Origin: a virus
Direction: 5' to 3' (one strand)
Virus record (IMG/VR): IMGVR_UViG_3300044958_000179
Span: 1 to 45,837 of that record
DNA: 45,837 nucleotides
Below the pieces are notes generated by a model. It saw only the letters and a program-made list of their open reading frames with translations, was not told the origin of the DNA and searched no databases. Shown piece by piece: positions 1 through 33,489 of this stretch (position 1 is its first letter; the number at the start of each line of letters is the position of its first letter). The position numbers were made by a program, and so were the translations under genes.

Positions 1-2480
1 CCGATATTTACGTTACCACCTGAAGTGATACGAAGTCTTTCTGCAGTATTAGTTTGATCCCTTATTGCAAACCAAGCAGTAGCCTGAATTTGCCAGTCCT
101 GATTGTTATCGTCATCTTCAAAAGTAATGTATGGGGCATTAGATTTTAAGTGTAATAAAGCAGTAGGTATATTAGTTCCGATACCAACTGAGCCACCATC
201 ATTGACTCTGAATACTTCAGATGTTCCATCATAAGCAGCAATAATTGCACCAGCGCCACTCTGAGTAACACCAAGACCAGGTGTTGCACTATTGGCCTGA
301 ATGTTAAGAAGGTCTACTTCTTGAACAATCGTATCAAGTGTTGTAGTTGTTCCATTAACATTCAAATTACCATTGACTGTCAGGTCATTAGTAATTACCG
401 CAAAATCAGATGTAGAAATACCAGAGACATTGACATTGGTAAGTTGTAATGCTCCAGCAATAGAACTTGTACTACCAGCACCAGTGAGTGTCAGATTTCC
501 TTCAATCGTTGCACCAGCAGATACTTGAACATTGTCAAGTGCTATCGTGCCATTAAAATCGTGATCTGTACCATTAATATCAAAGTTTCCACTAGAATTT
601 ACATTACCACCAAGAGTTGTGATTCCGCTGATAACATTGAATCCACCATCAGTGATACGAACAATGTCAGTATCTGCGCTATTAGTAAAACTGACAATGC
701 CAGTTCTAAACTTAGCAGGGCCATAAACTTCAAAGAATGCTGTCTGTTCTGCAGTACCAACACCAACTGAAGTGAAGGTGTAGATGCCACCAGAACCAGA
801 TCCCACACTATCATTTCTCCATACAGGAGCAAGTTCAGAGATTGATCTCTTTTCAAAACTTACAAATTCAACAATATCACCGAAGGTTGCTGCAGTCGTA
901 AGAGTAATAGTATCGCTATCAGTTTCTGTGTAGTCACTGCCAGTCAGTCTAACACCATTCAGATAGACATCAATGTATCCAGTGGTATATGTACTAGCAA
1001 GATCAAATACAGTTTGAGTAGCAGTTGTGACTGTAAATTCTTCCTTGGTGATCAGAGTTTCAACTTCACCTGTAATTGCAACTACTTCATAGTTAACCAA
1101 TTCAACAATGTCACCATCAACTGCTGCAGTTGATAAAGTAACCGTTCCTAGTGCGCCATTAGTTTCAGTGAAGTCACCAGCATTTTGCTTAATACCATTG
1201 ACAAATATATCAATATATCCACTTGTATATGGACTACTAGAAGTAAATACTGATTGAGTTCCACTTACAGTAGTGCTATCTCTAACAATGGTAGTTTCAA
1301 ATCCTCCACCACCTCCACCACCACCAGAGAGATAAACTGTAGCAATACCAGAAGATGGGTTGATGGTAACACCAGTTCCACCAGCATGAGTTGCATTAGT
1401 GGATACACCTGGACCAGCAAAGGTAATGATTGTTGCACCAAGACCAACAATCTCAGAATATCCAGTGCTTGGATTTGTGGTTGCAATACCAACACCACTC
1501 TGAATGTTGGTCAGGTATTGACCGTCACCATAATATGTAACGATACCAGTGGTTGCAGTTACAATACCACCAGTGCCATCATTGAAGATCTTAACTCTAC
1601 CAATCGTGCCAATACCAGTGGCTTGAAGTCCACCACTAATTGAAATACTGCGGTTTACATCAACATCAGCATTGATATCTACATTGCTAGAAAATGTTGA
1701 GAGGCCAGTGACCGTTGCTCCACCAGTAACTGAAAGACTTCTATTGATATCTACGTCAGAGTTGATATCTACGTTACCAGTAAATGTTGAGAGACCAGTA
1801 ACCGAAAGTCCACCAGCAAGTTCTATACTTGCATCAGCATCAATCTGATTGGAAAATGTTGAGATTCCAGTGACAGTTACTCCGCCATTAACATCAAGCA
1901 GTCCAGTAAGTGTGGAGATACCTGAGACGGAGAGACCAGCACCAACTACTAATGTGCTGGTGATTCCTACATTAGCACCAATATCAACATAATGTGTAAA
2001 GGTTGAGAGACCAATAACATCCAGATTGGCAAAAGTACCAACACCAATGGTTACTTCAAGACCATCTCTGAAGTTTCCATATCTGTCAAAGGTAGAGATG
2101 CCTGAGACTTTCAGACTATCTGCAGAGACATGATCTAAAAGACTGTCTCCCATGACGTTGAAGACTGTTCCGATTCCACCATTACTTGGATCTCGGATAT
2201 CTAATAAAAATACTGGTATCGACGTACCAATACCAACTACGTTGCTATCAAGTGCTGTAAAAATCGTTCCAGCAATACCAGAACCAACTCTCAGGCCAGT
2301 TTGAATTGTGCTGATACCAGATACAGTAGTATTCGTAGCAGCAATGCCACCACGAACATCTAATTCTACGTTAGGTTGGGTACTTGCAATACCAACCTTA
2401 TTGTTTGCTGCATCAGCAAATATAAGTTGACTATTAACCTCAAGACCGTTCTTAACTACAAAATTCTTGTTGACTGCCAT
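1..2480 (-). CDS. Tail fibre protein, 3' end cut by the window edge
   Basis: The ATG at 2478-2480 opens a frame that runs to base 1 without a stop, so at least 826 codons are present and the C-terminus lies outside. The start MAVNKNFVVKNGLEVN is the typical opening of large T4-like cyanophage fibres. The body repeats short units such as DVRGG, TVSGIS and RITSGGNVNIG, which suggests a trimeric beta-rich fibre shaft. Expected role: distal tail fibre in host adsorption. A purine-rich GGGGGAGAG lies about 10 nt before the ATG. The next gene upstream ends 41 nt away, and a degenerate late-promoter/hairpin sequence covers its stop codon. The role is inferred from the N-terminus and repeat style. 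Confidence 0.85.
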   Translation of the reverse strand, partial: MAVNKNFVVKNGLEVNSQLIFADAANNKVGIASTQPNVELDVRGGIAATNTTVSGISTIQTGLRVGSGIAGTIFTALDSNVVGIGTSIPVFLLDIRDPSNGGIGTVFNVMGDSLLDHVSADSLKVSGISTFDRYGNFRDGLEVTIGVGTFANLDVIGLSTFTHYVDIGANVGITSTLVVGAGLSVSGISTLTGLLDVNGGVTVTGISTFSNQIDADASIELAGGLSVTGLSTFTGNVDINSDVDINRSLSVTGGATVTGLSTFSSNVDINADVDVNRSISISGGLQATGIGTIGRVKIFNDGTGGIVTATTGIVTYYGDGQYLTNIQSGVGIATTNPSTGYSEIVGLGATIITFAGPGVSTNATHAGGTGVTINPSSGIATVYLSGGGGGGGGFETTIVRDSTTVSGTQSVFTSSSPYTSGYIDIFVNGIKQNAGDFTETNGALGTVTLSTAAVDGDIVELVNYEVVAITGEVETLITKEEFTVTTATQTVFDLASTYTTGYIDVYLNGVRLTGSDYTETDSDTITLTTAATFGDIVEFVSFEKRSISELAPVWRNDSVGSGSGGIYTFTSVGVGTAEQTAFFEVYGPAKFRTGIVSFTNSADTDIVRITDGGFNVISGITTLGGNVNSSGNFDINGTDHDFNGTIALDNVQVSAGATIEGNLTLTGAGSTSSIAGALQLTNVNVSGISTSDFAVITNDLTVNGNLNVNGTTTTLDTIVQEVDLLNIQANSATPGLGVTQSGAGAIIAAYDGTSEVFRVNDGGSVGIGTNIPTALLHLKSNAPYITFEDDDNNQDWQIQATAWFAIRDQTNTAERLRITSGGNVNI

Positions 2481-5500: not shown

Positions 5501-6157
5501 TCCAGAACTATCTGGATCTTCATCCATTGGAACAAGAAGAACTGCATCATCAATCTGACCTTTGATTCCTTCTTTTGCGGCAGAGACACTTTCATATATT
5601 CCGTCAGTAATATTTTCCCCATCAATTCTCCATTGATATGCGATACCACCATAAGACCCATCAGTAAGAGATGCATCAATAGTAAACGTTGTGTCTCCTC
5701 CAGCACCAACAGTAGCATCTGATGGTTGAGTATTGATTATAATCTCTGGATATACCGTCAGGTTTGCCCTAGAAGAAGTAAATCTGTCATTAACTGCATT
5801 GGGACTAGTTCCAATAGCAACATAGTTGGCACCCAAATAATATTGTTTTCCATTGTCATCTGGACTTGCAGAATCGTTAACATATAGTTGGGTTGTTGCT
5901 GTTCCAGTGTATTTTATGCCATCACTTAACTCACCAAGAGTTGCTTCATACCACTGATATACGATAGATCCAGTAGCAAATCCCACTGCTGGGTTTACTG
6001 GAGTTTGACTTGGGAATTGAGCTGTGGCAATTCCCGTGAAGAAGGCACTTTGACCAACTGATACTATTTGATCTGATGGGGTAGTCGTGAAAGAAAGGAT
6101 CGGACCATTTAACTGTTTGTCCGTAGGTATTGCGCGATATTGGGAATTCTGTATCAT
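2522..6157 (-). CDS. Large tail adhesin with Ig-like and two LamG-type domains
   Basis: 1211 residues. The N-terminal ~200 residues contain two Ig-like stretches (YQWYEA near 68-73 and a second YQWRIDG). Two concanavalin/LamG-type modules follow at about 260-440 and 505-690. Both carry the FTMEAW / FTIEAW, HHFAVTR / VHCAVTR and QDFRCYKG / QDLIVYKG signatures, so they are internal paralogues. Glycine-rich segments near 840-880 and 970-1006 precede an aromatic C-terminal domain rich in W and Y. This plan fits a receptor-binding virion protein that recognises surface glycans. The start overlaps the stop of the gene upstream by ATGA. Binding of a specific sugar is not shown. Confidence 0.8.
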   Translation of the reverse strand: MIQNSQYRAIPTDKQLNGPILSFTTTPSDQIVSVGQSAFFTGIATAQFPSQTPVNPAVGFATGSIVYQWYEATLGELSDGIKYTGTATTQLYVNDSASPDDNGKQYYLGANYVAIGTSPNAVNDRFTSSRANLTVYPEIIINTQPSDATVGAGGDTTFTIDASLTDGSYGGIAYQWRIDGENITDGIYESVSAAKEGIKGQIDDAVLLVPMDEDPDSSGNVNFRDYSNNTKTITPGSTYGDAPVWQNTGFATGNFYNGAAYFNGSTSYINVSGSSDFRMTDQPFTMEAWIKWSDNSWSSTWEVMACIGGGYYSDGGIWWAILRKDATGSDTTFYISHQGGYSAIANNIDIRADDNEWHHFAVTRTSSNDGHLIRMWMDGEKIGENSVNFVNKNFGGGALGYIGLEHATFHTIGYYYPNCWMQDFRCYKGLDKYKEAFTPSTISIRGYSRNVSIFNDSFPASLALPLWNSTGTINEVNVEDRSENKLTITPSDIRLTWDTNVKKWYDGSALFPNDSDAYLSVESSEVLAFGAGDFTIEAWCYFTKDSWSDIFSTDNYTTFNSSSGLFAFRKSSSETLSFYCNPGFESLSQNLTGDTIQQNTWVHCAVTRQNGVVRMFLNGNFQDSHDFGASIPSHSAGQPRVGGVAGNTYPMGGYIQDLIVYKGVAKYTEDFIVPNRSILSEDKTYSEISGSQTAELTITPDTIGANKIDCVVTHPDADTKTSNTADLVITEPKSLINIEGYDSTSTASLLNKNLEDSDFSLSASDVNSDDICLYAAEKDIDVEFDLFAAKGSDRGSFVGGEGGYSRIVFTMKKNEEYILRGIKSDTALFLYRKASLIAVVGQGGSAGKSGVGGDGGGVNIAGQNGGGVNAGVGGARIGIGQLGENGRFGSRSGINIDDVYPEDLKEESSNPSTYENYEGQTIKCSKGVYWKDQGKGSCEDVGTVKFRLSDGTEVTNSAILDRGFKSGYSINSTGAASGLGLQSNGGHGAVGGTASASGFGGGGGSGYSDGSVAIVRTQVGGSTGSARINVRLNKGLGGFYTDDQGRILIMSCTDIRDPNTLEITTGKILPGDNKVLDDIRWQRFLDLARDGTENYRITATLNNSTVKLSNATEKNIHRMINANRMPIKNSMARGWVDMGATYDIYPDRKALAWDETSGSSITGIDYSMMWWVTGSGWGFYGWSSNAFFAPTKYYQESVNYWILPPGVPDFS

Positions 6158-9100
6158 GCGAAGTTTTGTCCTCCAACGACTCCGTAGAACGAAGATCCTC
6201 CATCAAATGTTTTGTATGAATAAATGTCTGCTCTGCTTGCAGTCTGAGTCATAATTGGTACGACTCCGCCACCCGGCCAATTAACAGGAATTGCCGTTCC
6301 ACCTGAGGTCTTAAATGTATCTATACCAACAGCACGATCACCTGTTCCGTCCTGTAAAATTTTGAGACTGAATGAAGTAGATCCTGATGGAATGTTAGTA
6401 ATAGTAAAAGAATTAACATCATCATCTGCCGTCAAAGTGAATGATTGGGCAAGAGACAAGTCAACCGTAACAACGTTGGACAAGATATCTAACACTTCAA
6501 CATGTTCAGAATAAGTCTTGAATCTTGCTGCACCCTCGATATCAAGTTTTGCTCTAGGAACTGCGGTTCCTACGCCAACATTGTTACTTGCAGTTGTAAG
6601 TGCAGATCCAACTTGTAAGTTAGTTGCCGTTACAATACCAGCAGAGACATTCGCGTCAGTCAACAGAGCATTTGCTGCAGTTAGAATGCCCGTGACATTG
6701 ATGTCTGATACAGTGGTTAGACCAGTAAACTTAGACATTCCGTTGACAACTAGATCGAGTCCAGTGTTTCCTTGATCGCCAACTTCTAAGGTATATCCAG
6801 GAGTTGAGGTTCCGATACCAATGAACGAAAGATCTGTATTGTAATATCCGTTAAGACCAGCAGTTGGTGCCCAACCAGAAGCAGGGATGCTCAGAGCAGT
6901 TAATCCAGCACCAGAACCAACAAAACTGGTTGCAGTGACAGTTCCTACTATATTTGTATTACCTACAACGTGAAGTTGCATTCCATTAGCCGTGGTTCCA
7001 ATACCAACACCATCAGTATCAACGGCAAGCATTCCTGTGCCAGATCCAACCTGAAGAAGATTATCTCCAGGGCCTGTGGTGCCAACTCCTACTTTATCAA
7101 AGAGTGGTGACAATTCTTCAGTAGTCTTACTGACTGCACCAAATCTTTGCCATTCATTGTTGGTCGTAAATACCCAACCAGCATATCCACCAGAGGTAGG
7201 ATTAGCATTGAATACGATATCACCAGGGTTACCTGAGAGAGAAGGTGTTCCAACTCCGATGGTAACGTTTCTGGAGATAGTTGCACTTCCTTGCAGGAAG
7301 AGATTGTTAACCTCAAATCCCTTAGTGGAAGTTGATGTAACTTTCTCACCAAAAACAACAGGTCCGCTGAATTCAGAGAGTGCATTCTTGGTTGGACCAC
7401 CCTCAACCTTAATTGAACGGGTAATATTTGCCTCAAGACCTTGAACAAGGTTAAATCCTGCTACTTGACCAACATCCTCGCCAGTAACAGATTGAACAGG
7501 GGTGTCAAAGATTTCTTCTTCACCCGTAATAGAACTGAGTTTCTTGTTACCAGAATAAGAAATACCTCTATCGTTCATTCCAGTGTAGAAGTTGATACCT
7601 CCACCTCTCTTTGTAGATTGAGAGAGAAGTTCTTCAGTATCAGAGATTGCTCTATCCTGACGATCTGGTAGTGCAGTTGAGTAGTTACCAGGACCAAATC
7701 CAACATATTCAAAGGTATGAGCAGAAGCACGAATGATAGAGTGCCTTCTAAGTTCAATAGGAATTGGTTTAATTCTTCTGACTACAGAATTGATTTCGTG
7801 AGTTGCTGCTTTAGTTCCAAGTTGTCCACGAAGAACAACGATTGGATTGGTATTACCAGAAACACTACTAGTAGAAGTGGTGGTCTTAACTCTAACAATC
7901 TCACTATCAATCTCAAGATAATCACCAATGTTGATATCAAAATTTTCTGAATTAGTGATTGAAAGGTTTTGAGTTACCTCATCTGCAACAGTAGTACTCA
8001 AGGTTGTAGTAATGCCTGCATATTGAGCAACCATTCTTCCACTAACATTCTCTCTATTAACAGTAATGTCTCCTCCCTGTGCAGCAACACCAAGAGGATA
8101 AATCTCTAAATTTCCTGTTGCTGTTGGGGAATTGGTAGTGATACCAACGTTCAACTCAAGAGTCGTCAGAGTGTTTGCTCTGGTTACAACAAACTCTCCA
8201 TTATAGAGATCTTGTCCAGCACCAACGATTCTAATTCTTCTATCAACTGAAAGGCCATGCTGAAGATCAGTAGTAACCGATGCAATACCACTTGTGTTTT
8301 CATAAACAAATGAACTGATAGTCAACACAGGGCCATTCAACTGCATGAATGCATTAGTCATCGTCTCAGGTGCTGCACCGACGCTACCAATACCAGTGGT
8401 GGTAACACCAGTAATCGCGGTCAATGGACGTGCCACAAATGTTCTAGCAGCGCCAACGGCAATCTCAGAGATCTTATACAACTGGTTGCCAACAGCGTGA
8501 TTTGCAGACGTAATGCCAGTGATATTTACAATGTTATTATTGTTGTCATAAATCTGTTCTACCTGGACAACTGCTTCTTCAAACGGTGCTGCAAAAGTTG
8601 GAATACCAACGATCTGCATTGTATTGCCAATACCATATGAACTACCCCCGTCCATAATCTTAACGTCGGTAATTACGCCAGCAGCATCGAGGAATACCTT
8701 AGCAGTTGCAAACTCACCAGTTGTAGAACCAGCAGTTCCTACCAACCTTGCATTATAGTGTTCTTCAGTTGAACCAGAATTGTTACCATAACCAGCACCA
8801 TCATTAATAATACTTATTTTGGTAATTCTATTCAGTCCATGATCGTGAGTTGTCTTAAGGGTAACTTCAGTTCCAGCAATACTGACAGCATTTCCAGTAA
8901 CAATATCGGTTATGCCAACACCAACACTAAAATCTCTTCTCAGATAGTCAAATGCCTCTCTAGTGACACTACCCTTAGGGTCATTAATAACAACTTCTCC
9001 AATTATGTCGGAAGAAGCGAATGACTTAGTTGCTGCTGGATCAGAATGTGGATTGTCTCTATCAAGTTGTGGGTAGAGACTTGATACTGGTTGAGTGTAC

Positions 9101-12012
9101 TCTTCATTTTGGAATGGAGCAGCAGCAGGAGTGTTAGATCCATTCAGAATGGTGACATAATAAACTCCATCTTGTTCGTTTTGAATGTATTTTTGTGACT
9201 CAGTTGTTCTATACAGAATAGAGACATTACCTAACTTCTTACGTTTGAAGTGTGGAAGTGAAGTATTTCTTGCTGTGGTGTCGTTCTGGAAAGTTCCAGG
9301 ATTAGTATTGATGCCAACAGTAAATGCCTTGGCACTACTGACACCTACGACAGAGAGTAGTCTATTATATGCAGAGTCTGTAGCAGCAGAAGTATTTTCT
9401 GAACTCTTAACGTTGATAATCTCAACTTCGTTACCAACTTCTACATCATGTGGAACTTCAGTGTAGATCGTTGCGGTATTAGAAGTGCTATCCCAACTTG
9501 CGTCAGCAACCAGTCTAAAGTTTCTCTGTTGCTGTTCAGTGATAGATCCAGATCCAAAATATGTTTGAATCTCAGCAGTTGACAGACCTACAGTGGTATT
9601 AGATTCTTGAAGAATAAATCCTTCTTGTGGAGGTCTTCCTGAATTTGTAGAGTTTGCAGGAACGACATATCTCATACGATACAGTCTATCGTTGAGAGCT
9701 CTGTCGTCCTTCAGTCTGTTAATGAAGGATCTAGGAGTAGCAGAACCAAGGCCTGCAACTGCAAAGTCACTAATAGCAATGCCGATCTGATTGTCAGTGG
9801 ATGCAGTAGAGACGTTAATATACCATCTCTTTGATACGTCATTGAACTGAATTGGGTGGCCAACATCTCCAGAGTTCTTATCAGATACTCTACTTACAAG
9901 AGTCAGTTCTCCACCTTCAGCATTGAAGGTTAGATTCGTTGCGTTAGTTGATGCATCAAAAGTCAGTGCATCAGTTAGAGTAGCGGCAAGTTTTAACTGA
10001 GCATTATTGAGAGTCGTGTCAACAACAGCAAAGTATACTTTATTTGGTTCGATTCCGTCAGGGAGTTGACCAGTCTCCGAAATCATACGGACAGATTCGC
10101 CGTTGATGAAGTTGTGATCTTCAATAAAGGAGATAACATTATTAGAAATACTATTAGCAGTTCCAACTCTACCGATTTCAAATCTCTTCTCAGCACTTAA
10201 ATTAGAGTTAGGCATCACAATTCTGGATGCATATTCAGTAGTAACACCTGCTTGAGAGATCAGAACTCTAAGATCATCATTTACTCTTGCGCCAACACGA
10301 TATCCCTCAAGGACATTTGAAGGTGGCCTATCAGGGTTGGTTTCATCATACAGATATAGTTGTGAAGCAGTTGTTGTAATACCAACAGTTGCTGCTACGT
10401 CAATTGAATTGAATTCAATTGGAATTTCTACATTACTAACTTCTTGTGGTGGAATAATATGAGAAATATATGCAGTATTATCTTGGGTGAATGCAGTGTC
10501 TTTGAATCCTTCTGCAATCAGTGCTCTGGATCCAAAGTTAGAGTTAGAGTTGGTGACAGACATATCACCACCAGACTGACACACAAAGTGCTCAGCATAT
10601 CCAATAGCAAAGATGGATACATTCTGGATGATAGCATTGTTAGATGCCTTGATATGGAAGTTCTTATATGATGGTTTGAACTGTGCTCTTGAGTTTGTGC
10701 TCAGGTTCTCTTTACCATCATCCTTGTCTTCCCATTCACCAGTGGCGGTATTATACAGAACAAAGGCATTGTCATCCTTCTGAAGACCAATACCCGTAAA
10801 CTGTGCAACAACCATGGACTTGAATCCAGTTGCAGCAGAACCGTCAGCATGAAGGCCACATTGCCCAAATACAGAGCGCAGAGATATGTTGAAGATATAT
10901 GGAGACGCAGAAGTAACAGTATCAGTACTGAGAGTTACAGTAGCACCAGCAACCGTTGGGGCTAGATTTACTGGAGTGTTCTGAACCTTATACTTGAATT
11001 GAGTCGTGCTAATTCTTTCACTAACGACTTGTTTGCCATCATAACCAACAGCAGAAATTCCGTCGATAACAATAGGAGTATCAACGTCAAGACCAGAAAG
11101 TGCAGAATCAAGAGTTACTGTGACAGTAGTTCCTGCTGCAGTGGCAGTAGCGATACCAACGCTACCTGAGGTTGCACCAACGATACGGTATTCGTCGATC
11201 TTGGGCTGAATGTCAAGTGATGCCGAAGGATAGTCTGGTTCAATCGCTCTACCAGATGCTTGACCATAAACTCTACCAACCTTCTCATAATACATATCCA
11301 GATCAGTTCTGGCAGTAGAGTAAGTTTGGAAGGTATCTGCAATGTTAATGCCATTTACACCATCAGCATACTCAAAACAGGTGAGTTTATGGTGGGAGAA
11401 ATTGGGAACAACTACGTTATCAGTATAGTTGGTAAATGCAATGCTATTTGGATCAGCATCAAAAATAGAGAACTGCCAGAAGTAACATGCACCAGTTACA
11501 CGGAAGATTGCTGATCTTCCAATATTGTCATTAGTTGGATCAGGAACATACTTAGGACGAATCTTAGTCTTACGAAGGTCGAGACCAACAATCGAAGTAC
11601 CACGGGGAATAATTACACCACCATAAACACTATTAAGTTTATAGAGTTCGTTAGATGCCGTATTGAGATCAAAGTTAGTATTCAGATCAAATGGTGGAAG
11701 ATTATCTGAGGTAGCACCACTTCTCAATCTAAAGTTATTTGTCCCGTCAGGAATCCAACCTGGTCTGTTATCAACAATGTGATCGCCAGGATATAACAGG
11801 ATAGTTGTTTGTCCAAATCTATCGTTATTCAGACCTGCTTGGTATGAGAACCTTGATGCTTCGATCAGGGATCTTTGAATGGTTTTGAATGGTCTCGCTA
11901 AAGAATTGCCTTGGTTCTCAATGCTATCCGTTGCGTCTAAATCGTTGGGATTAACATAGAGAATATTACCGCGAACATTCTTCAGGAAATTATCTAAGCG
12001 ACTGAGTGGCAT
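6154..12012 (-). CDS. Very large virion structural (tail fibre-like) protein
   Basis: 1952 residues, the largest gene here. The N-terminus MPLSRLDNFLKNVRGNILYVNP followed by a LYPGDHIVDNRPG segment is conserved in large T4-like cyanophage structural proteins. The early part resembles the right-handed beta-helix (pectate-lyase-like) style. The middle is rich in V, T, G and I beta repeats. The last ~450 residues contain fibre-type units (GVGIGTT, VGTVTATSFVGSGAGLT) and end in a beta domain. Probable role: part of the distal tail or baseplate fibre apparatus. A GATAAATA late box lies 31 nt before the ATG, and the stop overlaps the next gene by ATGA. The exact virion position is unknown. Confidence 0.75.
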   Translation of the reverse strand: MPLSRLDNFLKNVRGNILYVNPNDLDATDSIENQGNSLARPFKTIQRSLIEASRFSYQAGLNNDRFGQTTILLYPGDHIVDNRPGWIPDGTNNFRLRSGATSDNLPPFDLNTNFDLNTASNELYKLNSVYGGVIIPRGTSIVGLDLRKTKIRPKYVPDPTNDNIGRSAIFRVTGACYFWQFSIFDADPNSIAFTNYTDNVVVPNFSHHKLTCFEYADGVNGINIADTFQTYSTARTDLDMYYEKVGRVYGQASGRAIEPDYPSASLDIQPKIDEYRIVGATSGSVGIATATAAGTTVTVTLDSALSGLDVDTPIVIDGISAVGYDGKQVVSERISTTQFKYKVQNTPVNLAPTVAGATVTLSTDTVTSASPYIFNISLRSVFGQCGLHADGSAATGFKSMVVAQFTGIGLQKDDNAFVLYNTATGEWEDKDDGKENLSTNSRAQFKPSYKNFHIKASNNAIIQNVSIFAIGYAEHFVCQSGGDMSVTNSNSNFGSRALIAEGFKDTAFTQDNTAYISHIIPPQEVSNVEIPIEFNSIDVAATVGITTTASQLYLYDETNPDRPPSNVLEGYRVGARVNDDLRVLISQAGVTTEYASRIVMPNSNLSAEKRFEIGRVGTANSISNNVISFIEDHNFINGESVRMISETGQLPDGIEPNKVYFAVVDTTLNNAQLKLAATLTDALTFDASTNATNLTFNAEGGELTLVSRVSDKNSGDVGHPIQFNDVSKRWYINVSTASTDNQIGIAISDFAVAGLGSATPRSFINRLKDDRALNDRLYRMRYVVPANSTNSGRPPQEGFILQESNTTVGLSTAEIQTYFGSGSITEQQQRNFRLVADASWDSTSNTATIYTEVPHDVEVGNEVEIINVKSSENTSAATDSAYNRLLSVVGVSSAKAFTVGINTNPGTFQNDTTARNTSLPHFKRKKLGNVSILYRTTESQKYIQNEQDGVYYVTILNGSNTPAAAPFQNEEYTQPVSSLYPQLDRDNPHSDPAATKSFASSDIIGEVVINDPKGSVTREAFDYLRRDFSVGVGITDIVTGNAVSIAGTEVTLKTTHDHGLNRITKISIINDGAGYGNNSGSTEEHYNARLVGTAGSTTGEFATAKVFLDAAGVITDVKIMDGGSSYGIGNTMQIVGIPTFAAPFEEAVVQVEQIYDNNNNIVNITGITSANHAVGNQLYKISEIAVGAARTFVARPLTAITGVTTTGIGSVGAAPETMTNAFMQLNGPVLTISSFVYENTSGIASVTTDLQHGLSVDRRIRIVGAGQDLYNGEFVVTRANTLTTLELNVGITTNSPTATGNLEIYPLGVAAQGGDITVNRENVSGRMVAQYAGITTTLSTTVADEVTQNLSITNSENFDINIGDYLEIDSEIVRVKTTTSTSSVSGNTNPIVVLRGQLGTKAATHEINSVVRRIKPIPIELRRHSIIRASAHTFEYVGFGPGNYSTALPDRQDRAISDTEELLSQSTKRGGGINFYTGMNDRGISYSGNKKLSSITGEEEIFDTPVQSVTGEDVGQVAGFNLVQGLEANITRSIKVEGGPTKNALSEFSGPVVFGEKVTSTSTKGFEVNNLFLQGSATISRNVTIGVGTPSLSGNPGDIVFNANPTSGGYAGWVFTTNNEWQRFGAVSKTTEELSPLFDKVGVGTTGPGDNLLQVGSGTGMLAVDTDGVGIGTTANGMQLHVVGNTNIVGTVTATSFVGSGAGLTALSIPASGWAPTAGLNGYYNTDLSFIGIGTSTPGYTLEVGDQGNTGLDLVVNGMSKFTGLTTVSDINVTGILTAANALLTDANVSAGIVTATNLQVGSALTTASNNVGVGTAVPRAKLDIEGAARFKTYSEHVEVLDILSNVVTVDLSLAQSFTLTADDDVNSFTITNIPSGSTSFSLKILQDGTGDRAVGIDTFKTSGGTAIPVNWPGGGVVPIMTQTASRADIYSYKTFDGGSSFYGVVGGQNFA

Positions 12013-12042
12013 CTTCTTCGCGCTGTGAGTTCTATTATGATT

Positions 12043-12050
12043 TATTTATC
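12043..12050 (-). promoter_or_regulatory. Late promoter box GATAAATA
   Basis: Minus-strand GATAAATA matches the NATAAATA late consensus of T4-like cyanophages. It is 31 nt upstream of the 1952-residue structural gene and just downstream of the accessory-cassette terminator, so late transcription can restart here. Confidence 0.65.
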
Positions 12051-12055
12051 ACATG

Positions 12056-12086
12056 AAAAAGGGTGACCCCAGAGGATCACCCTTTT
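12056..12086 (-). terminator. Rho-independent terminator of the accessory cassette
   Basis: Perfect 10-bp stem AAAAGGGTGA / TCACCCTTTT with a 10-nt loop, followed on the minus strand by TTTTT. It lies about 40 nt after the stop of the Fe-S protein gene. The stem is near symmetric, so some plus-strand function is possible, but no plus-strand gene reads into it. Confidence 0.8.
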
Positions 12087-12094
12087 CGCACTTC

Positions 12095-12138
12095 CTTCAC
12101 ACCTTTATATAGTATCATAAAATCTATTAGGTGTGAAG
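12095..12138. repeat. 10-bp inverted repeat spanning a stop codon
   Basis: CTTCACACCT at 12095-12104 and its exact complement AGGTGTGAAG at 12129-12138 flank a 24-nt A+T-rich loop. The second arm includes the TAA stop of the Fe-S gene and its last codons. With the terminator just beyond, the transcript would carry two successive hairpins, possibly protecting its 3' end. Confidence 0.6.
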
Positions 12139-12930
12139 AGGTGCCTTGCTGCATCTTGGTTGACAAACACACTCTCTACATTGTGGTATTCCTATCCGTT
12201 TTCCATCCTTGTATAGATTAAATCCATCATCACTTTCATAATAACCATCAATACCTTGACCCCATTCAAATCTGCCTGCTTTTTCAAAACAGTCCCAATT
12301 TTCAATCACTTCCTTGGAAATGTCTGGATTCATCTTTTCATACCAAAACCACTTTGTTGAAGATATTGTTGGATGATTTCCAAACCCCAAAAAATCATCA
12401 CACTTTCTAGCATCAATCCAATCTTCTTCAATTGCTCCCACAGGACAATTTTTTATACAATCGTTACAATCGGTACACAAGTCCAACAGATCTTTGCTTG
12501 GTTTTAAGTTTTCATGGTTTATGATTTTATCAATAAACATAAACACACAAATTTTTGATTGGAATCCAAACTTTCTATTGTAAATTAGAGAATTTTTTGC
12601 TCTATGTCCAGTACCCGATAAGAGAGCAGATTCTTTGAAATTAGAATATGTTGGAATTACTTTATCACCAAACTTCTCTTTGAGAATCTCAAAGGATTCG
12701 TCATAAAGACTATAATTGTTTGCTTCATCAGTATATCTGATTACCACAATACCATTGAGTGTTGTATTGTGAATATGATTTGTCAGATCAAATCCATCAT
12801 GTAAGTGAAATTTTGCTTTCAATGGGGTATTTCCTGCTCTGTCCATTTGGTGAGCAGAAAGATATCCAAGATCCCATAAGTTAGGATCAAATAATGAAAC
12901 TATGTCTAAAAACTCTACTGTGGATTCCAT
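12127..12930 (-). CDS. QueG-like 4Fe-4S protein
   Basis: 267 residues. A ferredoxin-type cluster motif CTDCNDCIKNCP gives C152, C155, C158 and C162. It is followed by DARKC (C177) and a C-terminal cysteine set CRECVCQPRC (C251, C254, C256, C260). A conserved-looking GTGHRAKNSL stretch lies near 107. The spacing of cluster, DA(R)xC and distal second cluster resembles epoxyqueuosine reductase (QueG) and related Fe-S reductases. An electron-transfer or reductase role is therefore likely, but the substrate is unknown. The ATG has AAAGG about 5 nt upstream. The start overlaps the Mom-like gene by 16 nt, so the two are probably translated together. It is the last gene before the cassette terminator. 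A plain ferredoxin-domain protein is the alternative. Confidence 0.7.
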   Translation of the reverse strand: MESTVEFLDIVSLFDPNLWDLGYLSAHQMDRAGNTPLKAKFHLHDGFDLTNHIHNTTLNGIVVIRYTDEANNYSLYDESFEILKEKFGDKVIPTYSNFKESALLSGTGHRAKNSLIYNRKFGFQSKICVFMFIDKIINHENLKPSKDLLDLCTDCNDCIKNCPVGAIEEDWIDARKCDDFLGFGNHPTISSTKWFWYEKMNPDISKEVIENWDCFEKAGRFEWGQGIDGYYESDDGFNLYKDGKRIGIPQCRECVCQPRCSKAPLHT

Positions 12931-13514
12931 AATACCTTTAATGTTTTATCAAATATCATCAAATAACGGTGTTTTTGACTTCTATCACGCCATTTACCTT
13001 CTACACCTTTGACTGAACCACGAGAGTGTTTTGTCCCATCACTATAATAGAAGTCTTTCTTAGGATCTGTCAACCCATAGTATTTGAAATTACATGCACG
13101 ATAAATGACTCCGCTATGATGAGTAGAGTCGGCATAACTGAGAATAGAGCGAACAATTGTATCTTTGCGAAACCTCTTAATACATCGACTTACAAACCAG
13201 GAAGTAATATTATACTCCTCTTTTTGAAGTTCTGGGTCAACGCACAATCTAGATAATTCAAATAATCCGTCCTGTTCATCTCTTTCTAATCCGAATGCTC
13301 CTTTGGCAATTTCTGGAACAGGGAGCCCAGTAAAAATACAAACGGCAAGACACCCACCAATATTAAGAGGGCAGTTCCAATCGGTGTGTCTAAAAAGTCC
13401 ATAATTATATCCCGACTTAAAGTCCTTTGATTCGTCTTTTAGGTAATGGTAGTTATATAGTAAATTTTTACAACTCCCCTTATCTACTCTATCAATGTAA
13501 AAATTAGATTTCAT
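12915..13514 (-). CDS. Mom-like DNA modification acyltransferase
   Basis: 199 residues from the ATG at 13514, which overlaps the upstream stop by ATGA. A GTG 15 nt earlier is less likely. The pattern ELSRLCV (86-92), a serine/tryptophan helix ITSWFVSRCI, SYAD (126-129), IYRACNF (137-143) and a terminal RSQKHRYLMIFD (178-189) matches the GNAT-fold Mom family. Phage Mu Mom converts adenine to N6-methylcarbamoyl-adenine and shields DNA from restriction. I infer a similar role here. Its partners are an Fe-S protein downstream and a 2OG oxygenase-like protein upstream, in overlapping genes. A different GNAT acyltransferase substrate is the main alternative. Confidence 0.7.
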   Translation of the reverse strand: MKSNFYIDRVDKGSCKNLLYNYHYLKDESKDFKSGYNYGLFRHTDWNCPLNIGGCLAVCIFTGLPVPEIAKGAFGLERDEQDGLFELSRLCVDPELQKEEYNITSWFVSRCIKRFRKDTIVRSILSYADSTHHSGVIYRACNFKYYGLTDPKKDFYYSDGTKHSRGSVKGVEGKWRDRSQKHRYLMIFDKTLKVLWNPQ

Positions 13515-14143
13515 TTTCCATAAAACCACTCAGTATTATATGAAGAATCTCCTTCTCCGTATAACCCAAAAGGAACTATATTAAATGCTAAGGAATATCT
13601 TGGTTTATCGTCATTATGTGTTCCAATTCTATGATTTAAGTAACTTGGAAATAATAAAAGAGTTCCTGTTGTTGGGTATATGTCCCAAGTAAAGCAATTA
13701 TGAATATTCCACTTTTTTGGTACTATGTAATGTGAGGGAAACTCTGCAATAGGACTTTCAAATTGAATAGGCGCATGTTTATTCTCTTTTGAGTATTCTC
13801 CAAAATATAAAATTCCACTATAATAACTATTCCTATGAGTATGAAACTGGGAGAAGTTATTCTTAGTTACTTTCGTTAACCAAGAAGTTGTTATAATAAA
13901 ATTTACATCCAATTCCAGAATTTCATTCTTTACAAAGTGAAAATAATCGCATAGTGACTTTTTTATTTCTGGATAATCTTCTAAAATATATCTGTTTTGA
14001 GTAACAGAATTGCCATTGCTTCCCTGGGTTTCAGTGAGTTGCCAATCAACATTTTTACAAATTTGATTGAGTGATTTTAGAGATTCTTCATCATCAAACG
14101 AACTTTCGATTACGTTTGATGCAAATAAAGGTATTACTCTCAT
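13511..14143 (-). CDS. 2OG-Fe(II) oxygenase-like protein
   Basis: 210 residues. The central part has SWLTKV, then SQFHTHRNSYYSGILYF with H101 and H103, and LFPSYLNHRIGTHN with H171, ending PRYSLAFN with R182. This order (two metal ligands, a distal histidine, then an arginine for 2-oxoglutarate) is that of the phage 2OG-Fe(II) oxygenase group common in cyanophages. Expected chemistry is Fe(II)- and 2-oxoglutarate-dependent hydroxylation or demethylation; the substrate is unknown. The gene starts in an ATGA overlap with the 59-residue gene and ends in an ATGA overlap with the Mom-like gene. Whether the iron ligand is H101 or H103 cannot be decided here. Confidence 0.75.
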   Translation of the reverse strand: MRVIPLFASNVIESSFDDEESLKSLNQICKNVDWQLTETQGSNGNSVTQNRYILEDYPEIKKSLCDYFHFVKNEILELDVNFIITTSWLTKVTKNNFSQFHTHRNSYYSGILYFGEYSKENKHAPIQFESPIAEFPSHYIVPKKWNIHNCFTWDIYPTTGTLLLFPSYLNHRIGTHNDDKPRYSLAFNIVPFGLYGEGDSSYNTEWFYGK

Positions 14144-14319
14144 GTATCTTTATCGTCTAGAATGTACTCCACAGTATTAGCCACATCATTCATTGCATCT
14201 CGCAATTCTTCACGTTGTCCAGCGTGCTGTTCTACTTTTGTAACACCATTTTTAAATTCTTCACAAAGAGTCCATCTCCATTGACTCATACTCGTAGAGT
14301 ACCAAAGATTAATTTTCAT
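14140..14319 (-). CDS. Small conserved cyanophage protein, 59 aa
   Basis: Encodes 59 residues beginning MKINLWYSTSMSQWRWTL and ending AMNDVANTVEYILDD. The tryptophan-rich start and the AMND(V)ANTV helix resemble a small protein repeatedly found in marine T4-like cyanophages; its function is unknown. The gene is joined by ATGA overlaps at both ends (gene upstream stops at 14316, oxygenase starts at 14143). That is strong positional evidence that it is translated. Confidence 0.75.
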   Translation of the reverse strand: MKINLWYSTSMSQWRWTLCEEFKNGVTKVEQHAGQREELRDAMNDVANTVEYILDDKDT

Positions 14320-14591
14320 TCTGTATCTACGGGCAAAAGTTCAGGATTTTCTAATTCTAATTCAAACATCAAAGGATGGCAACCTTCTTCAATAAGATAT
14401 GAAGAAGCTCTGTAAACTTCATCAAGTTCCCAAGATTTTTCATTATTTGCTGCTTCTATTATTTCATACAAATATAAAGATCCATGCGGCAAATCATCAA
14501 AAGTAAATGGGATTCCTTGAATGAAATACATTAAGACAATACTCATCTTATTGTTATACCAACAATATTTCGTGTCTATACGGTATTTCAT
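14316..14591 (-). CDS. Hypothetical acidic protein, 91 aa
   Basis: The ATG at 14591 (MKYRIDTKYCWYNN) has AAAGG about 6 nt upstream, so it is preferred over a longer start that would run into the tRNA. The protein is acidic, with SLYLYEIIEAANNE and a C-terminal ELELENPELLPVDTE. No domain is recognised. The stop overlaps the next start by ATGA, which places it in the cassette operon just after the tRNA-like gene. Confidence 0.65.
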   Translation of the reverse strand: MKYRIDTKYCWYNNKMSIVLMYFIQGIPFTFDDLPHGSLYLYEIIEAANNEKSWELDEVYRASSYLIEEGCHPLMFELELENPELLPVDTE

Positions 14592-14615
14592 ATGATACCT
14601 TTTTGGATATTTAGA

Positions 14616-14689
14616 TAGGAGTAGTGGGAGTCGAACCCACACTGTATTGATTTTAAGTCAACTATCTCTGACTATTGGATTATACTCCT
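14616..14689 (-). tRNA. tRNA-like gene, anticodon UAA (Leu), short variable loop
   Basis: The 74-nt minus-strand sequence folds as a cloverleaf. It has a perfect 7-bp acceptor (AGGAGTA / TACTCCT), an anticodon arm GTTGA-CTTAAAA-TCAAT with anticodon TAA, a perfect 5-bp T arm GTGGG-TTCGACT-CCCAC, and discriminator A. UAA reads leucine UUA/UUG codons. Oddities: the variable loop is only ~5 nt, whereas leucine tRNAs normally have a long variable arm. The D stem is only about 3 bp, and the D loop lacks the usual GG. The first acceptor pair is A-T. CCA is not encoded. The tRNA fold is well supported; amino-acid identity and activity are less certain. Confidence 0.8.
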
Positions 14690-14694
14690 AAAAA

Positions 14695-14865
14695 TCAAGA
14701 GATTAATTCACCTGCTTGATTGTAGATTGCTGGGTTTAAACGGCAATACTCATTAAAGGTGATTTTCATCTCTTTCTCTGTCAGACCGCAATTTTTCGCT
14801 GCTTTTGGTAAATTCCATTTCGCCGCGAATAACATTTCCATAGATTGTCTGGTTTCTGTTCTCAT
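14695..14865 (-). CDS. Small conserved cyanophage protein, 56 aa
   Basis: Encodes 56 residues starting MRTETRQSMEMLFAAKWNLP, with KAAKNCGLTEKEMKITFNEYCRLNP after it. The pattern looks like a helix-turn-helix-type phage peptide (AAKNCGLTEKEMK) and resembles small conserved proteins of T4-like cyanophages. It overlaps the 54-codon frame upstream by 113 nt in another frame and ends just before the tRNA-like gene. No clear Shine-Dalgarno is seen. Confidence 0.55.
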   Translation of the reverse strand: MRTETRQSMEMLFAAKWNLPKAAKNCGLTEKEMKITFNEYCRLNPAIYNQAGELIS

Positions 14866-14917
14866 ATTTGTAACATTTCAGGATTTCATTATAAAAGTCG
14901 GCAGAATAAGTATTCAT
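14753..14917 (-). CDS. Possible small protein, 54 aa, overlapping another frame
   Basis: The ATG at 14917 has TTAGG 6 nt upstream and reads MNTYSADFYNEILKCYKYEN to a TAA at 14753. It overlaps the 56-residue gene out of frame for most of its length. It has the better ribosome site of the two, while the other has the better-looking protein. It may be real, or it may act as a translated leader coupled to the next gene. No function is recognised. Confidence 0.4.
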   Translation of the reverse strand: MNTYSADFYNEILKCYKYENRNQTIYGNVIRGEMEFTKSSEKLRSDRERDENHL

Positions 14918-14928
14918 AAAAAACCTAA

Positions 14929-14998
14929 GAGGATCAAATTTTTGCCGGAGTTTTTTGCGACCAAAACTAGAAAATAAATTTGATTTTGGTCAGAGAGG
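14929..14998. repeat. Copy B of a non-coding element shared with 37661-37712
   Basis: On the plus strand the core TCAAATTTTTGCCGGAGTTTTTT is followed by GCGACCAAAA, a spacer, TTTTGGTC and AGAGAGG. Apart from small changes, the core and the AGAGAGG end are repeated at 37661-37712. In both copies the AGAGAGG end includes the Pro-Leu-stop end of the upstream minus-strand gene. GACCAAAA / TTTTGGTC in this copy is an 8-bp inverted repeat. Function is unknown. Confidence 0.65.
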
Positions 14999-15172
14999 AT
15001 TAGTATATGCTAACACGCTATCGGGGGTAATGTCACGCACTAGTTCAAGCACATTCATGAACTGCTCCATGGTCTCACAGTCTACGGTACGCTCATCACC
15101 TTCACTAGAATACAGATAGAACTTGCGTTTGAGAGGATCAACGACGCAGCGGGTCAGGAATTCGTCTTGCAT
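14990..15172 (-). CDS. Small conserved cyanophage protein, 60 aa
   Basis: 60 residues beginning MQDEFLTRCVVDPLKRKFYLYS, then EGDERTVDCETMEQFMNVLELVR. This plan is familiar from small conserved proteins of marine T4-like cyanophages; the function is unknown. It is the first gene behind the consensus promoter at 15196-15224, with a short leader of roughly 17 nt. Its end overlaps the shared repeat element. Confidence 0.7.
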   Translation of the reverse strand: MQDEFLTRCVVDPLKRKFYLYSSEGDERTVDCETMEQFMNVLELVRDITPDSVLAYTNPL

Positions 15173-15195
15173 GAAGTTTGTTTGTATGTCTGCCC

Positions 15196-15224
15196 ATTAT
15201 AGGGCATCCAGACAGTCGTGTCAA
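15196..15224 (-). promoter_or_regulatory. Consensus sigma70-type promoter of the accessory cassette
   Basis: On the minus strand TTGACA (15219-15224), a 17-nt spacer and TATAAT (15196-15201) match the bacterial consensus perfectly. The -10 box sits inside the dyad TGCCC-TATAAT-GGGCA, which could bind a regulator. The -35 begins two bases after the stop of the upstream virion gene. It should be read by host RNA polymerase early in infection. Confidence 0.85.
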
Positions 15225-15225
15225 C

Positions 15226-15879
15226 CTATTTGTTGCAGGTGTACTGGGTGTTGTCGCCTGGATAGTCCTCAATACCCTTGCCTTGATACTCCACGATGAG
15301 TTTCTCACCATCCTTACGCTCACCATATACATGGTAGAAGCAATCGATTGGCATACCACCTTGAGATTGGAGATAGATCTTCTCTTCATCCCAACGCTTT
15401 ACAATCACGTTTTGATGAGCACCAACAGGAGTAAGATTTACAGTGATTGAATCAGTATGAACAAGATCCTTCCAATAGTTTGGGAGAGCAATCTCTTTTC
15501 CCTTTACTCTTCCACGAAAGTACACTCCAGACTCTGGGCCCTCCAGGCAAATGTGGCGAAGTCTATATCCTTCTTTTGTTGGGTGTGGAATATCAAATGA
15601 TTTTCTTGAAGTAAGAGTTATACCGCCAGCAGTTACTTCAGAAGCAGTAATTTCACCTGTAATATTAATATCACAGGCACCAGTCATCTCAGCAGTCACT
15701 TCCCAGTTATCAATCTTTGCTGTATGATATTTGTATGGGGCACAAGCATCCTCAGGATAGTCTTCCTCAGCAATAATAAACGGTTTCGCAATATACTGAT
15801 CTAGATTTGATGCTATCCCATATGCGGCACGATCTTCACAATCTGGACCTGGCGGTCTTGTACCTGGTACGAATTCCAT
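15226..15879 (-). CDS. Virion structural protein, paralogue of the gene upstream
   Basis: 217 residues. The C-terminal domain (about 92-213) has SFDIPHP, LRHICLEGPE, NYWKDLV, LTPVG and LIVEYQGKGIEDYPGD. The same motifs recur in the neighbouring 286-residue protein at about 136-265, so the two are tandem duplicates. The N-terminal ~90 residues differ and carry a short beta segment (INITGEITASEVTAGGI). This domain is widespread in cyanophage tail structural genes and is probably a surface-exposed tail or fibre domain. The start overlaps the upstream stop as TAATG. No catalytic motif is evident. Confidence 0.7.
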   Translation of the reverse strand: MEFVPGTRPPGPDCEDRAAYGIASNLDQYIAKPFIIAEEDYPEDACAPYKYHTAKIDNWEVTAEMTGACDINITGEITASEVTAGGITLTSRKSFDIPHPTKEGYRLRHICLEGPESGVYFRGRVKGKEIALPNYWKDLVHTDSITVNLTPVGAHQNVIVKRWDEEKIYLQSQGGMPIDCFYHVYGERKDGEKLIVEYQGKGIEDYPGDNTQYTCNK

Positions 15880-16739
15880 TAGTCTTTTTCCTCTCCAATT
15901 TGTTCTACTTTTTGATTTACCATTCCTCTAATCATGTTCTCAACATAATTATGCTCGAAGTTGAATGAGTACCCTTCATTACCACCTGGATAATCTTCAT
16001 GAGATTCTCCTTCATATTCTACAATAAGATCGTCATCAAGTCTACGGGCTACAATATAGTAGTCTGCATTGATTGGACCTCCTGCATTGTTTCTTACAAT
16101 AACTTGTTTGCCAAATACAATCTCTTTAACAAATAATTCTTGCCAACTTCCAATAGGAGTCAGACTGATAGACATATCTTCTGGATTCACAAGACCATCC
16201 CAGAATGAAGGAAGTTCAATCACACCATTCCCAGAAACTTTTCCTCGGCAATAGACAGCAATCTCTGGACCTTCAATACAAACGTGGCGAAGTCTCCATC
16301 CTTTCTTATTGGGATGGGGCATGTCGAATGGAAGGTCTTTCTTATTAGAAAGCCAATGCCTGCCACTCATTCCCCAAACTTCTTTCTGTGCATTGAGGTC
16401 AATCGCTGCAGTGATATGACCTTGGACATCAAGATTGCCAAATACAGCACCACCACCCAAAACAGATAATGAATATGGTGAACTATTTCCCCCTCCACCA
16501 CCAGGAAAAACACTCAATGTACCAGGAACAACTGGTTTTGGAGAATCACTATTAGCTATTGGTGCAACCATTAAAGTTGCATATGGGAATGGATATGCTG
16601 CAGCAGTACCGACTAATTGAGGACCTTCAATGAATGATGAACCTCTAATCTTTGCATCTCCAAGACCAAGTGAGATAGGAAATCCTACACCAACACATTG
16701 CTGGCCTCCAAGTGCAATATCATCAAATAAAAAAGACAT
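15879..16739 (-). CDS. Virion structural protein with the same C-terminal domain
   Basis: 286 residues. An N-terminal beta and glycine-rich part (PGGGGGNSSPYSLSVLGGGAVFGNL, then GHITAAIDLN) precedes the shared domain: FDMPHP, LRHVCIEGPE, SFWDGLV, LTPIG, LIVEYEGESHEDYPGG. The ATG has AGGAG about 8 nt upstream. It lies after the spike-like protein and before its duplicate, inside the tail block, so a tail or baseplate-periphery role is likely. The exact place in the particle is unknown. Confidence 0.7.
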   Translation of the reverse strand: MSFLFDDIALGGQQCVGVGFPISLGLGDAKIRGSSFIEGPQLVGTAAAYPFPYATLMVAPIANSDSPKPVVPGTLSVFPGGGGGNSSPYSLSVLGGGAVFGNLDVQGHITAAIDLNAQKEVWGMSGRHWLSNKKDLPFDMPHPNKKGWRLRHVCIEGPEIAVYCRGKVSGNGVIELPSFWDGLVNPEDMSISLTPIGSWQELFVKEIVFGKQVIVRNNAGGPINADYYIVARRLDDDLIVEYEGESHEDYPGGNEGYSFNFEHNYVENMIRGMVNQKVEQIGEEKD

Positions 16740-22150: not shown

Positions 22151-22158
22151 TATTTATG
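22151..22158 (-). promoter_or_regulatory. Late promoter box CATAAATA overlapping a stop codon
   Basis: Minus-strand CATAAATA matches NATAAATA. The TAA inside it is the stop codon of the gp5-like gene. It is about 21 nt before the ATG of the PA14-repeat gene. Confidence 0.6.
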
Positions 22159-25516: not shown

Positions 25517-25524
25517 TATTTATT
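25517..25524 (-). promoter_or_regulatory. Late promoter box AATAAATA overlapping a stop codon
   Basis: Minus-strand AATAAATA contains the TAA stop of the 1079-residue tail protein and lies about 21 nt before the start of the gp27-like hub gene. Confidence 0.6.
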
Positions 25525-32620: not shown

Positions 32621-32628
32621 TATAAATA
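32621..32628 (+). promoter_or_regulatory. Perfect T4-type late promoter TATAAATA
   Basis: TATAAATA on the plus strand is 32 nt before gp4 and starts only 1 nt outside the divergent gp54 start codon. It should drive gp4, the 128-residue gene, gp48 and gp53. Confidence 0.75.
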
Positions 32629-33103: not shown

Positions 33104-33489
33104 TGCCAAGAAAGACACTCAAGCAAAGACAACAAAGTAGTGATATAGATAGAGGTCTTTCTATTAAGAAAAACTTAATTGGTAATGAAAGTCCTGATGA
33201 TATTATGGAATTGATTATGGAAACTTTTTCTGAAGAATTAGTTCCTGAAGTTGGTAGTTATTATACTTTTGTTTATAGTCCAACAACTCCAAACATACAG
33301 TATGACCAATATCCATTAATAGCAATGACAGAAGTATTTGCTTGGGGGTTTCGTGGTATCAATTATCACTGGGGATCATTTAGAAACTATGGATGGGGAG
33401 AAGTTGTTGGTAAGTTTCATCCCGTAAATACTATGGAGTTGAAAACAATGAGATCCTTGCCTTATGCAAATTACCTCATAAATAACTAA
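33103..33489 (+). CDS. Conserved cyanophage protein in the gp4-gp48 interval, 128 aa
   Basis: The N-terminus is basic (MPRKTLKQRQQS). The core is EVGSYYTFVYSPTTPNIQYDQYPLIAMTEVFAWGFRGINYHWGSF, and the end is LKTMRSLPYANYLINN. This YDQYPL...WGF.G.N(Y/F)HW pattern is familiar in T4-like cyanophages at this place. It is probably a virion or assembly protein, but it is not clearly one of the named T4 genes. It overlaps gp4 by 1 nt. Its last codons contain the late box for gp48. Confidence 0.7.
   Translation: MPRKTLKQRQQSSDIDRGLSIKKNLIGNESPDDIMELIMETFSEELVPEVGSYYTFVYSPTTPNIQYDQYPLIAMTEVFAWGFRGINYHWGSFRNYGWGEVVGKFHPVNTMELKTMRSLPYANYLINN
33477..33484 (+). promoter_or_regulatory. Late promoter box CATAAATA before gp48
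   Basis: Plus-strand CATAAATA lies in the last codons of the 128-residue gene, about 15 nt before the gp48 ATG. Confidence 0.55.

Follow-up and report, generated by a model that had tools for sequence, protein, structure and literature searches.

A probable cargo site in a conserved, predicted early transcription unit of T4-like cyanophages, holding an exchangeable Mom-family gene and two apparently unrelated passengers

Phage Mu holds its DNA-modifying enzyme Mom under late control. The uncultured virus studied here has its closest isolates elsewhere, among the Kyanoviridae, and two of these, S-SM2 and Bellamy, share with it a locus composed of a promoter, a DUF7294 gene, tRNA-Leu, phrog_4134, phrog_2818, a terminator and a tail-fibre gene. 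The locus in our window (the whole 45,837-nucleotide stretch that was analysed) differs in having three further genes, for a Mom-family enzyme, a 2-oxoglutarate (2OG)-Fe(II) oxygenase and an Fe-S protein, where the two isolates have an empty site. We propose, with a probability of roughly 0.77, that this is a cargo hotspot in a conserved early unit of T4-like cyanophages, occupied by an exchangeable Mom anti-restriction gene and by two unrelated passengers.

The unit ahead of the tail-fibre gene

The unit contains seven protein genes and one tRNA-Leu, all on the minus strand (Table 1), in agreement with the eight or nine genes counted in an earlier, sequence-only reading of this DNA. The perfect TTGACA-17-TATAAT promoter described there is the one exact match to TTGACA-(16..18)-TATAAT in the whole window (expected 0.05). 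Its other two structural claims also held: the unit is closed by a strong terminator (-22.2 kcal/mol when folded as RNA with its flanks, z -4.6, matched by no shuffle), and the last five protein genes are joined by short overlaps of 4, 4, 10 and 16 bp. The hairpin was missed by an automatic terminator scan and is detected by RNA folding. As arranged, these genes probably form a single early transcription unit between tail genes, the timing being inferred because the promoter is of the sigma-70 type. Beyond the terminator, the motif GATAAATA occupies a position common to most relatives, and its window-wide count is no higher than chance; given that position, we regard it as a putative late-type promoter.

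Table 1. Features of the pre-fibre unit and its downstream boundary, in order of transcription
Feature	Position	Strand	Basis
Sigma-70 consensus (early-type) promoter TTGACA-17-TATAAT	15196..15224	-	12/12 matches
DUF7294 / phrog_662 small protein, gene 1 of unit	14990..15172	-	PF23966, E 4e-22
phrog_1308/phrog_1920 small protein	14695..14865	-	PHROG match
tRNA-Leu (TAA)	14614..14690	-	ARAGORN; Rfam RF00005, 58.5 bits
phrog_4134 small protein	14316..14591	-	E 1e-35
phrog_2818 small protein, final gene of ancestral unit	14140..14319	-	E 3e-27
2OG-Fe(II) oxygenase (PF13759, phrog_81), putative accessory insertion in phrog_2818/Mom gap	13511..14143	-	Pfam
Mom-family DNA adenine-modifying enzyme (predicted), probable resident cargo	12915..13520	-	PF25680, phrog_1384
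QueG/reductive-dehalogenase-like double [4Fe-4S] protein, putative accessory insertion in Mom/terminator gap	12127..12930	-	TIGR00276 below cut-off; Foldseek
Intrinsic terminator, hairpin and T run	12056..12085	-	RNA fold
Putative T4-late-type promoter motif GATAAATA before fibre gene	12041..12050	-	ATAAATA core 12043-12049
Large tail-fibre gene, downstream boundary of site, outside unit	6154..12012	-	'fiber'/'tail fiber' in S-SM2, Bellamy

The promoter and terminator bracket an ancestral early unit, and not a Mom-specific one, as both are shared with the Mom-less S-SM2 and Bellamy. A near-identical promoter precedes the DUF7294 gene, which is kept in relatives, in many of these relatives and in the Mom-less isolates S-SM2, Bellamy, SynMITS9220M01 and S-SCSM1. 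In S-SM2 and Bellamy the tRNA-Leu lies at the same site and phrog_2818 is the final gene ahead of the fibre, and the same terminator hairpin precedes the fibre gene in these two isolates and in a near relative (L036). In this group it is normal for such an early unit to lie amid the virion genes; the earlier reading had called the presence of the enzymes together in one there unusual.

Mom as a recurrent occupant of the pre-fibre site

Nearly all of the best 80 Mom loci that reach far enough have Mom directly before the fibre gene. When virus loci were selected by their fibre gene instead, Mom preceded the fibre in 32 of 97 (33%), where most virus records are fragments and 'absent', here and in the counts below, means missing from the recovered piece. 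The distance from Mom to the fibre gene was 65-130 bp in 31 of these 32 loci. Mapped on the fibre tree, Mom presence changes 17 times, and supported branches require 8 or more of these gains and losses. Genes of the psbA/psbD type were present in 15 of 27 Mom-bearing records; these genes, and Kyanoviridae as the nearest isolates, mark the virus as a cyanophage. We found the Mom clade of the window in none of the cyanophage isolate records searched, and no paper reporting Mom in cyanophages in the open-access literature searched. The pre-fibre site is in all likelihood a cargo hotspot, of which Mom, patchily distributed among the uncultured relatives, would be a recurrent occupant. Among a wide range of uncultured T4-like cyanophages, about one in three has a Mom-type gene at this same site, yet it appears in no cyanophage isolate record searched. 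This pattern suggests a part for restriction in shaping the contacts between cyanophages and hosts where isolate collections do not reach.

The oxygenase and Fe-S genes beside Mom

HMM searches bore out the earlier assignment of a 2OG-Fe(II) oxygenase (PF13759, 2OG-FeII_Oxy_5, 56.1 bits against a cut-off of 27), although the protein fails the cut-off of subfamily TIGR02466 (45.6 versus 62.5 bits). It resembles other cyanophage oxygenases of phrog_81 in being a family member above the Pfam cut-off, and differs from them in sequence (33-36% identity to the nearest) while having no special partner. The proposal of a QueG-like protein with two cysteine sets stood in part. The protein may share with QueG a cobalamin-type N-terminal domain and two [4Fe-4S] clusters: eight cysteines are invariant across 17 relatives, in a pattern that would suit the double 4Fe-4S type, and the top Foldseek matches over most of its length are QueG, MMACHC and reductive dehalogenases, with low TM-scores (about 0.43 to QueG) from a model of medium confidence (pLDDT 74 when built from 17 sequences, 62 from 8). 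QueG identity itself did not stand: the score against TIGR00276, the QueG equivalog, is 41 bits, far under the cut-off of 200, the match to the profile covers about 75 residues and 72 profile columns and is not full length, and the protein has 267 residues as against 379 in E. coli QueG. It apparently belongs to a small, virus-only family with a modelled QueG/reductive-dehalogenase/MMACHC fold; the peptide patterns used did not find this family in bacterial or archaeal genomes. With its members beside oxygenase genes or nrdB, the family is a second lead from this locus.

This neighbourhood raises the possibility that the Fe-S and 2OG genes are a pair of their own with Mom merely between them, the QueG-like protein acting at low potential to sustain an iron enzyme, or modifying a protein, tRNA or small molecule by redox chemistry. 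Other T4-like marine contigs have an overlapping cassette, phrog_1458 - 2OG - FeS - 2OG, followed by a neck gene, and in two loci (L002 and L003) the Fe-S gene lies directly downstream of nrdB, which encodes a di-iron enzyme. The phrog_1458 protein (567 aa) has a C-terminal methyltransferase-like domain; an assignment as a U32-type hydroxylase was rejected after its profile had been compared with those of UbiU and UbiV from E. coli. However, the oxygenase of the window does not join the Fe-S-linked oxygenases of the cassette in the 2OG tree, and so joint import of the pair from that source is unsupported. Three further Fe-S loci (L007, L008 and L012) have no neighbouring 2OG gene, and adjacency is weak evidence where 2OG genes are as frequent as in cyanophages (PMC3037559, Table 3). 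We therefore consider such a pair unlikely.

Mom and its relation to the neighbouring enzymes

The Mom-type enzyme recognised in the sequence-only reading matches PF25680 nearly full length (71.6 bits against a cut-off of 27.1, profile positions 1-190 of 202) and phrog_1384, 'Mom-like DNA modification protein' (E 2e-27). A profile built from 13 phage Moms, with Mu Mom excluded, had Mu Mom (8bv8, 'Methylcarbamoylase mom') as its sole match in the PDB (E 0.0011). In an alignment of 11 sequences including Mu, 28 residues are invariant with Mu Mom, among them H25, Y26, R91, D131 and Y140, which we take to be the equivalents of its active-site residues H48/Y49, R101, D139 and Y149. The gene is under purifying selection (omega 0.07-0.15). 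Its role is probably adenine hypermodification of phage DNA as a shield from restriction, so that the anti-restriction function first suggested for it is kept as likely on the strength of family identity. Substrate switching is easy for GNAT-fold enzymes, identity to Mu Mom is just 23% in the alignment and the modified base is a prediction, all of which would suit a domesticated GNAT acting on another substrate such as a protein or tRNA; a score above the Mom family cut-off over almost the whole profile, together with the invariant residues, makes this improbable.

A module of the three enzymes for hypermodification or anti-restriction, as originally put forward, would be striking if true, and the evidence points against it. 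In that model a group is attached to adenine by Mom; the other two enzymes, the oxygenase and the QueG-like reductase, either produce the precursor of this group or act on it by trimming, oxidation or reversal. The three genes share one promoter and their overlaps look as if they were translationally coupled, as those of a functional trio would; a few loci (L031-L033 and L261) have a different 2OG gene directly upstream of Mom, and other phages have oxygenases whose targets are modified bases. However, none of 50 Mom-bearing virus records has the Fe-S gene and none of 23 records with the Fe-S gene has Mom, in counts for which the control worked, and the Fe-S gene was found in none of the 97 fibre-selected loci. 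At the pre-fibre site, 2OG genes are not enriched with Mom (1/23 with Mom versus 11/62 without). Mom is conserved under purifying selection without either partner, and we know of no such oxygenase or Fe-S partners that Mu Mom needs. In the near relative L036, which is 92-97% identical around the site, Mom is present and both the 2OG and Fe-S genes are missing at these points. Because this relative has Mom and neither neighbour, the two genes appear to be later, separate insertions flanking Mom. Relatives among the searched records, from which the closest kin of the window may be missing, carry the three genes separately and without association, and we reject the single module, a shared pathway being very improbable. 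Less probable again is recruitment of the Fe-S and 2OG genes around Mom in the lineage of the window, giving a redox-tailored adenine modification through a three-enzyme pathway with a viral cobalamin-type reductase.

Under the cargo-hotspot explanation, the ancestral unit (promoter, DUF7294, phrog_1308, tRNA-Leu, phrog_4134, phrog_2818 and terminator, then the late-type promoter and fibre gene) would have come first, with Mom exchanged in and out of the interval between phrog_2818 and the fibre, where about a third of uncultured relatives now have it. Expressed early, Mom would modify adenine in the phage DNA at N6 with a group of the acyl type (carbamoylmethyl), and this modification would block host restriction enzymes. 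Of the two passengers, each inserted separately and later, the 2OG oxygenase would be of a kind common and varied at this site, and the QueG-like gene would come from a small viral family; both may be co-transcribed with Mom and not needed by it.

Among 50,697 phage records, the nearest Mom is the Mom-like gene of Roseobacter phage CRP-212 (53% identity). It lies in a replication/nucleotide region, adjoining a MazG-type gene, with no annotated 2OG or Fe-S neighbour. Control also appears to differ between the window and Mu: in this lytic cyanophage the gene lies behind an early-type promoter and no Com gene was seen alongside it, whereas mom of Mu is late and Com-controlled, which makes early timing of the window's Mom less certain. 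In sequence the two are only about 23% identical, yet they belong to the same family over nearly their full length and share its conserved residues, and adenine modification is what we would expect of both.

Composition of the unit and identity of the Mom protein

The window, a 45.8-kb virus record with genes for a baseplate hub lysozyme, tail tube and PhoH, represents a T4-like cyanophage with S-SM2 and Bellamy (Kyanoviridae) as its closest isolates. The promoter, gene run and terminator described in the sequence-only reading are borne out by the sequence features (see table), and the last five protein genes of the unit overlap by 4, 4, 10 and 16 bases. ATAAATA motifs lie directly ahead of several structural genes, with a window-wide total no higher than chance. 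The adjacent paralogous fibre-region genes, which overlap by 1 base, are found upstream of the unit in most relatives too.

Features of the unit, in order from the promoter, and of its surroundings
Feature	Position in window	Strand
Promoter, perfect sigma-70	15224-15196	minus
DUF7294 gene		minus
phrog_1308 gene		minus
tRNA-Leu(TAA)		minus
phrog_4134 gene		minus
phrog_2818 gene		minus
2OG-Fe(II) oxygenase	13511-14143	minus
Mom-family protein	12915-13520	minus
Fe-S protein	12127-12930	minus
Strong terminator	~12085-12056	minus
T4-late-type GATAAATA motif, downstream of terminator
Large fibre gene, after the motif
ATAAATA motifs (T4 late-type)	12043-12049, 22151-22157, 25517-25523, 32622-32628, 33478-33484
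Paralogous fibre-region genes	15226-15879, 15879-16739

The assignment of the 201-aa protein to the Mom family is genuine. Against PF25680 it reaches 71.6 bits (cut-off 27.1) over almost the full profile, and it matches phrog_1384, 'Mom-like DNA modification protein'. A PDB search using a profile of 13 phage Moms, with Mu Mom left out, returned one entry, Mu Mom itself (8bv8, named methylcarbamoylase). In comparison with Mu Mom, 28 residues are invariant, including H25, Y26, R91, D131 and Y140, which correspond to residues essential in that enzyme, and an omega of 0.07-0.15 indicates purifying selection. Segment 76-168 shows a further, weak similarity to the C-terminal region of the phage HNH/homing endonuclease families phrog_559 and phrog_3339, in which nucleases may be fused to Mom-like domains.

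Mom at the pre-fibre site

Searching IMG/VR gave 454 confirmed Mom stretches, and among the best 80 of these Mom precedes a fibre gene in nearly all that reach far enough. Loci were also gathered by fibre gene (those of S-SM2 and the window), so that selection was independent of Mom. Among 97 distinct loci, each with at least 1.2 kb upstream, we found Mom in 32, and in 31 of them it ends 65-130 bp upstream of the fibre gene; a 2OG gene was present in 16 of the 97 and the Fe-S gene in none. On a quick tree of the fibre N-terminus, Mom presence requires 17 changes, of which supported branches force at least 8, indicating that Mom was repeatedly gained and lost at one site. Mom is the recurrent occupant of the pre-fibre site. 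Genes of psbA/psbD type, in 15 of 27 Mom-bearing records searched, mark these as cyanophages. The sole Mom of the window's clade among 50,697 phage records is that of Roseobacter phage CRP-212 (53%, two different queries), in a set that may lack the window's closest kin.

S-SM2 and Bellamy share with the window the order DUF7294, tRNA-Leu, phrog_4134, phrog_2818 and fibre, a matching TTGACA-17-TATAAT promoter, the same terminator and the same late-type motif, but Mom, the oxygenase and the Fe-S gene are all absent from their pre-fibre locus. An early cassette amid virion genes is therefore normal for this group, and the unit is older than its cargo.

Origin of the oxygenase and Fe-S genes

Mom, the Fe-S protein and the oxygenase had been proposed to form one early DNA hypermodification or anti-restriction module. 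The stretch and the Mom family are confirmed, whereas the three-enzyme partnership is not supported and the proposal as a whole only in part: the Fe-S gene occurs in 0/50 Mom-bearing and Mom in 0/23 Fe-S-bearing records (many of them fragments), and a near relative, L036, whose sequence near the site matches the window at 92-97% identity, has Mom without the oxygenase (window 14149 to 13517) or the Fe-S gene (12945 to 12119). The Fe-S profile recovered its target in 4/4 control records, and the Mom profile the window's own Mom. Divergence is uneven gene by gene (phrog_4134 identical, Mom and fibre more distant), indicating frequent recombination at the site. Judged from these comparisons, the oxygenase and Fe-S gene are insertions separate from Mom, made in one event or two. 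In other phages this position holds 2OG genes drawn from various families, CpeT genes and HNH genes. We detected no 2OG enrichment where Mom is present (1/23 with Mom vs 11/62 without, Fisher p 0.17). In the tree, no branch with support gives a sister to the oxygenase of the window, and its nearest neighbour is another hotspot oxygenase rather than the Fe-S-linked ones.

QueG itself was rejected as the identity of the Fe-S protein, which scores 41 bits against an equivalog cut-off of 200 and aligns with E. coli QueG over 72 columns only. The best PDB matches of its AlphaFold model (17 sequences, pLDDT 74) are QueG, MMACHC and reductive dehalogenases (lowest E 2.5e-7, with a TM-score near 0.43), and its eight invariant cysteines would be enough for two [4Fe-4S] clusters; together with the missed cut-off, this points to a relative within the QueG/reductive dehalogenase superfamily. 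Searches of virus contigs gave some two dozen relatives; the phage records searched gave none, and neither did bacterial and archaeal genomes screened with the chosen patterns. In two contigs (L002:4775-6768, L003:1151-3141) the Fe-S gene comes immediately after nrdA-nrdB, the gene ends overlapping, an arrangement that recalls E. coli, where the ferredoxin gene yfaE comes after nrdB. A conserved cassette of T4-like marine virus contigs, joined by start/stop overlaps and directly ahead of the neck (head-tail adaptor) gene, runs phrog_1458, 2OG oxygenase, QueG-like Fe-S protein, second 2OG oxygenase; it is complete in L009, L011, L106, L107, L109 and L111 and without the second 2OG gene in L114 and L115. 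The phrog_1458 protein has a C-terminal methyltransferase-like domain. It is possible, though only suggested, that the Fe-S protein supplies electrons or keeps iron enzymes active.

Proposed function of the unit

Early T4-like promoters are treated as sigma-70 type (PMC3037559), and the unit is most likely transcribed early from its host-type promoter. Mom-family proteins are GNAT enzymes that acylate adenine N6 (PMC7824862), and the modification by Mu Mom confers restriction resistance on DNA (PMC6483171). The Mom of the window would modify adenines of replicating phage DNA, which would stop host restriction enzymes cutting it, while the oxygenase and Fe-S protein are most likely co-expressed passengers with other tasks. 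The closest description of the unit is a member of the known Mom family at a cyanophage cargo hotspot.
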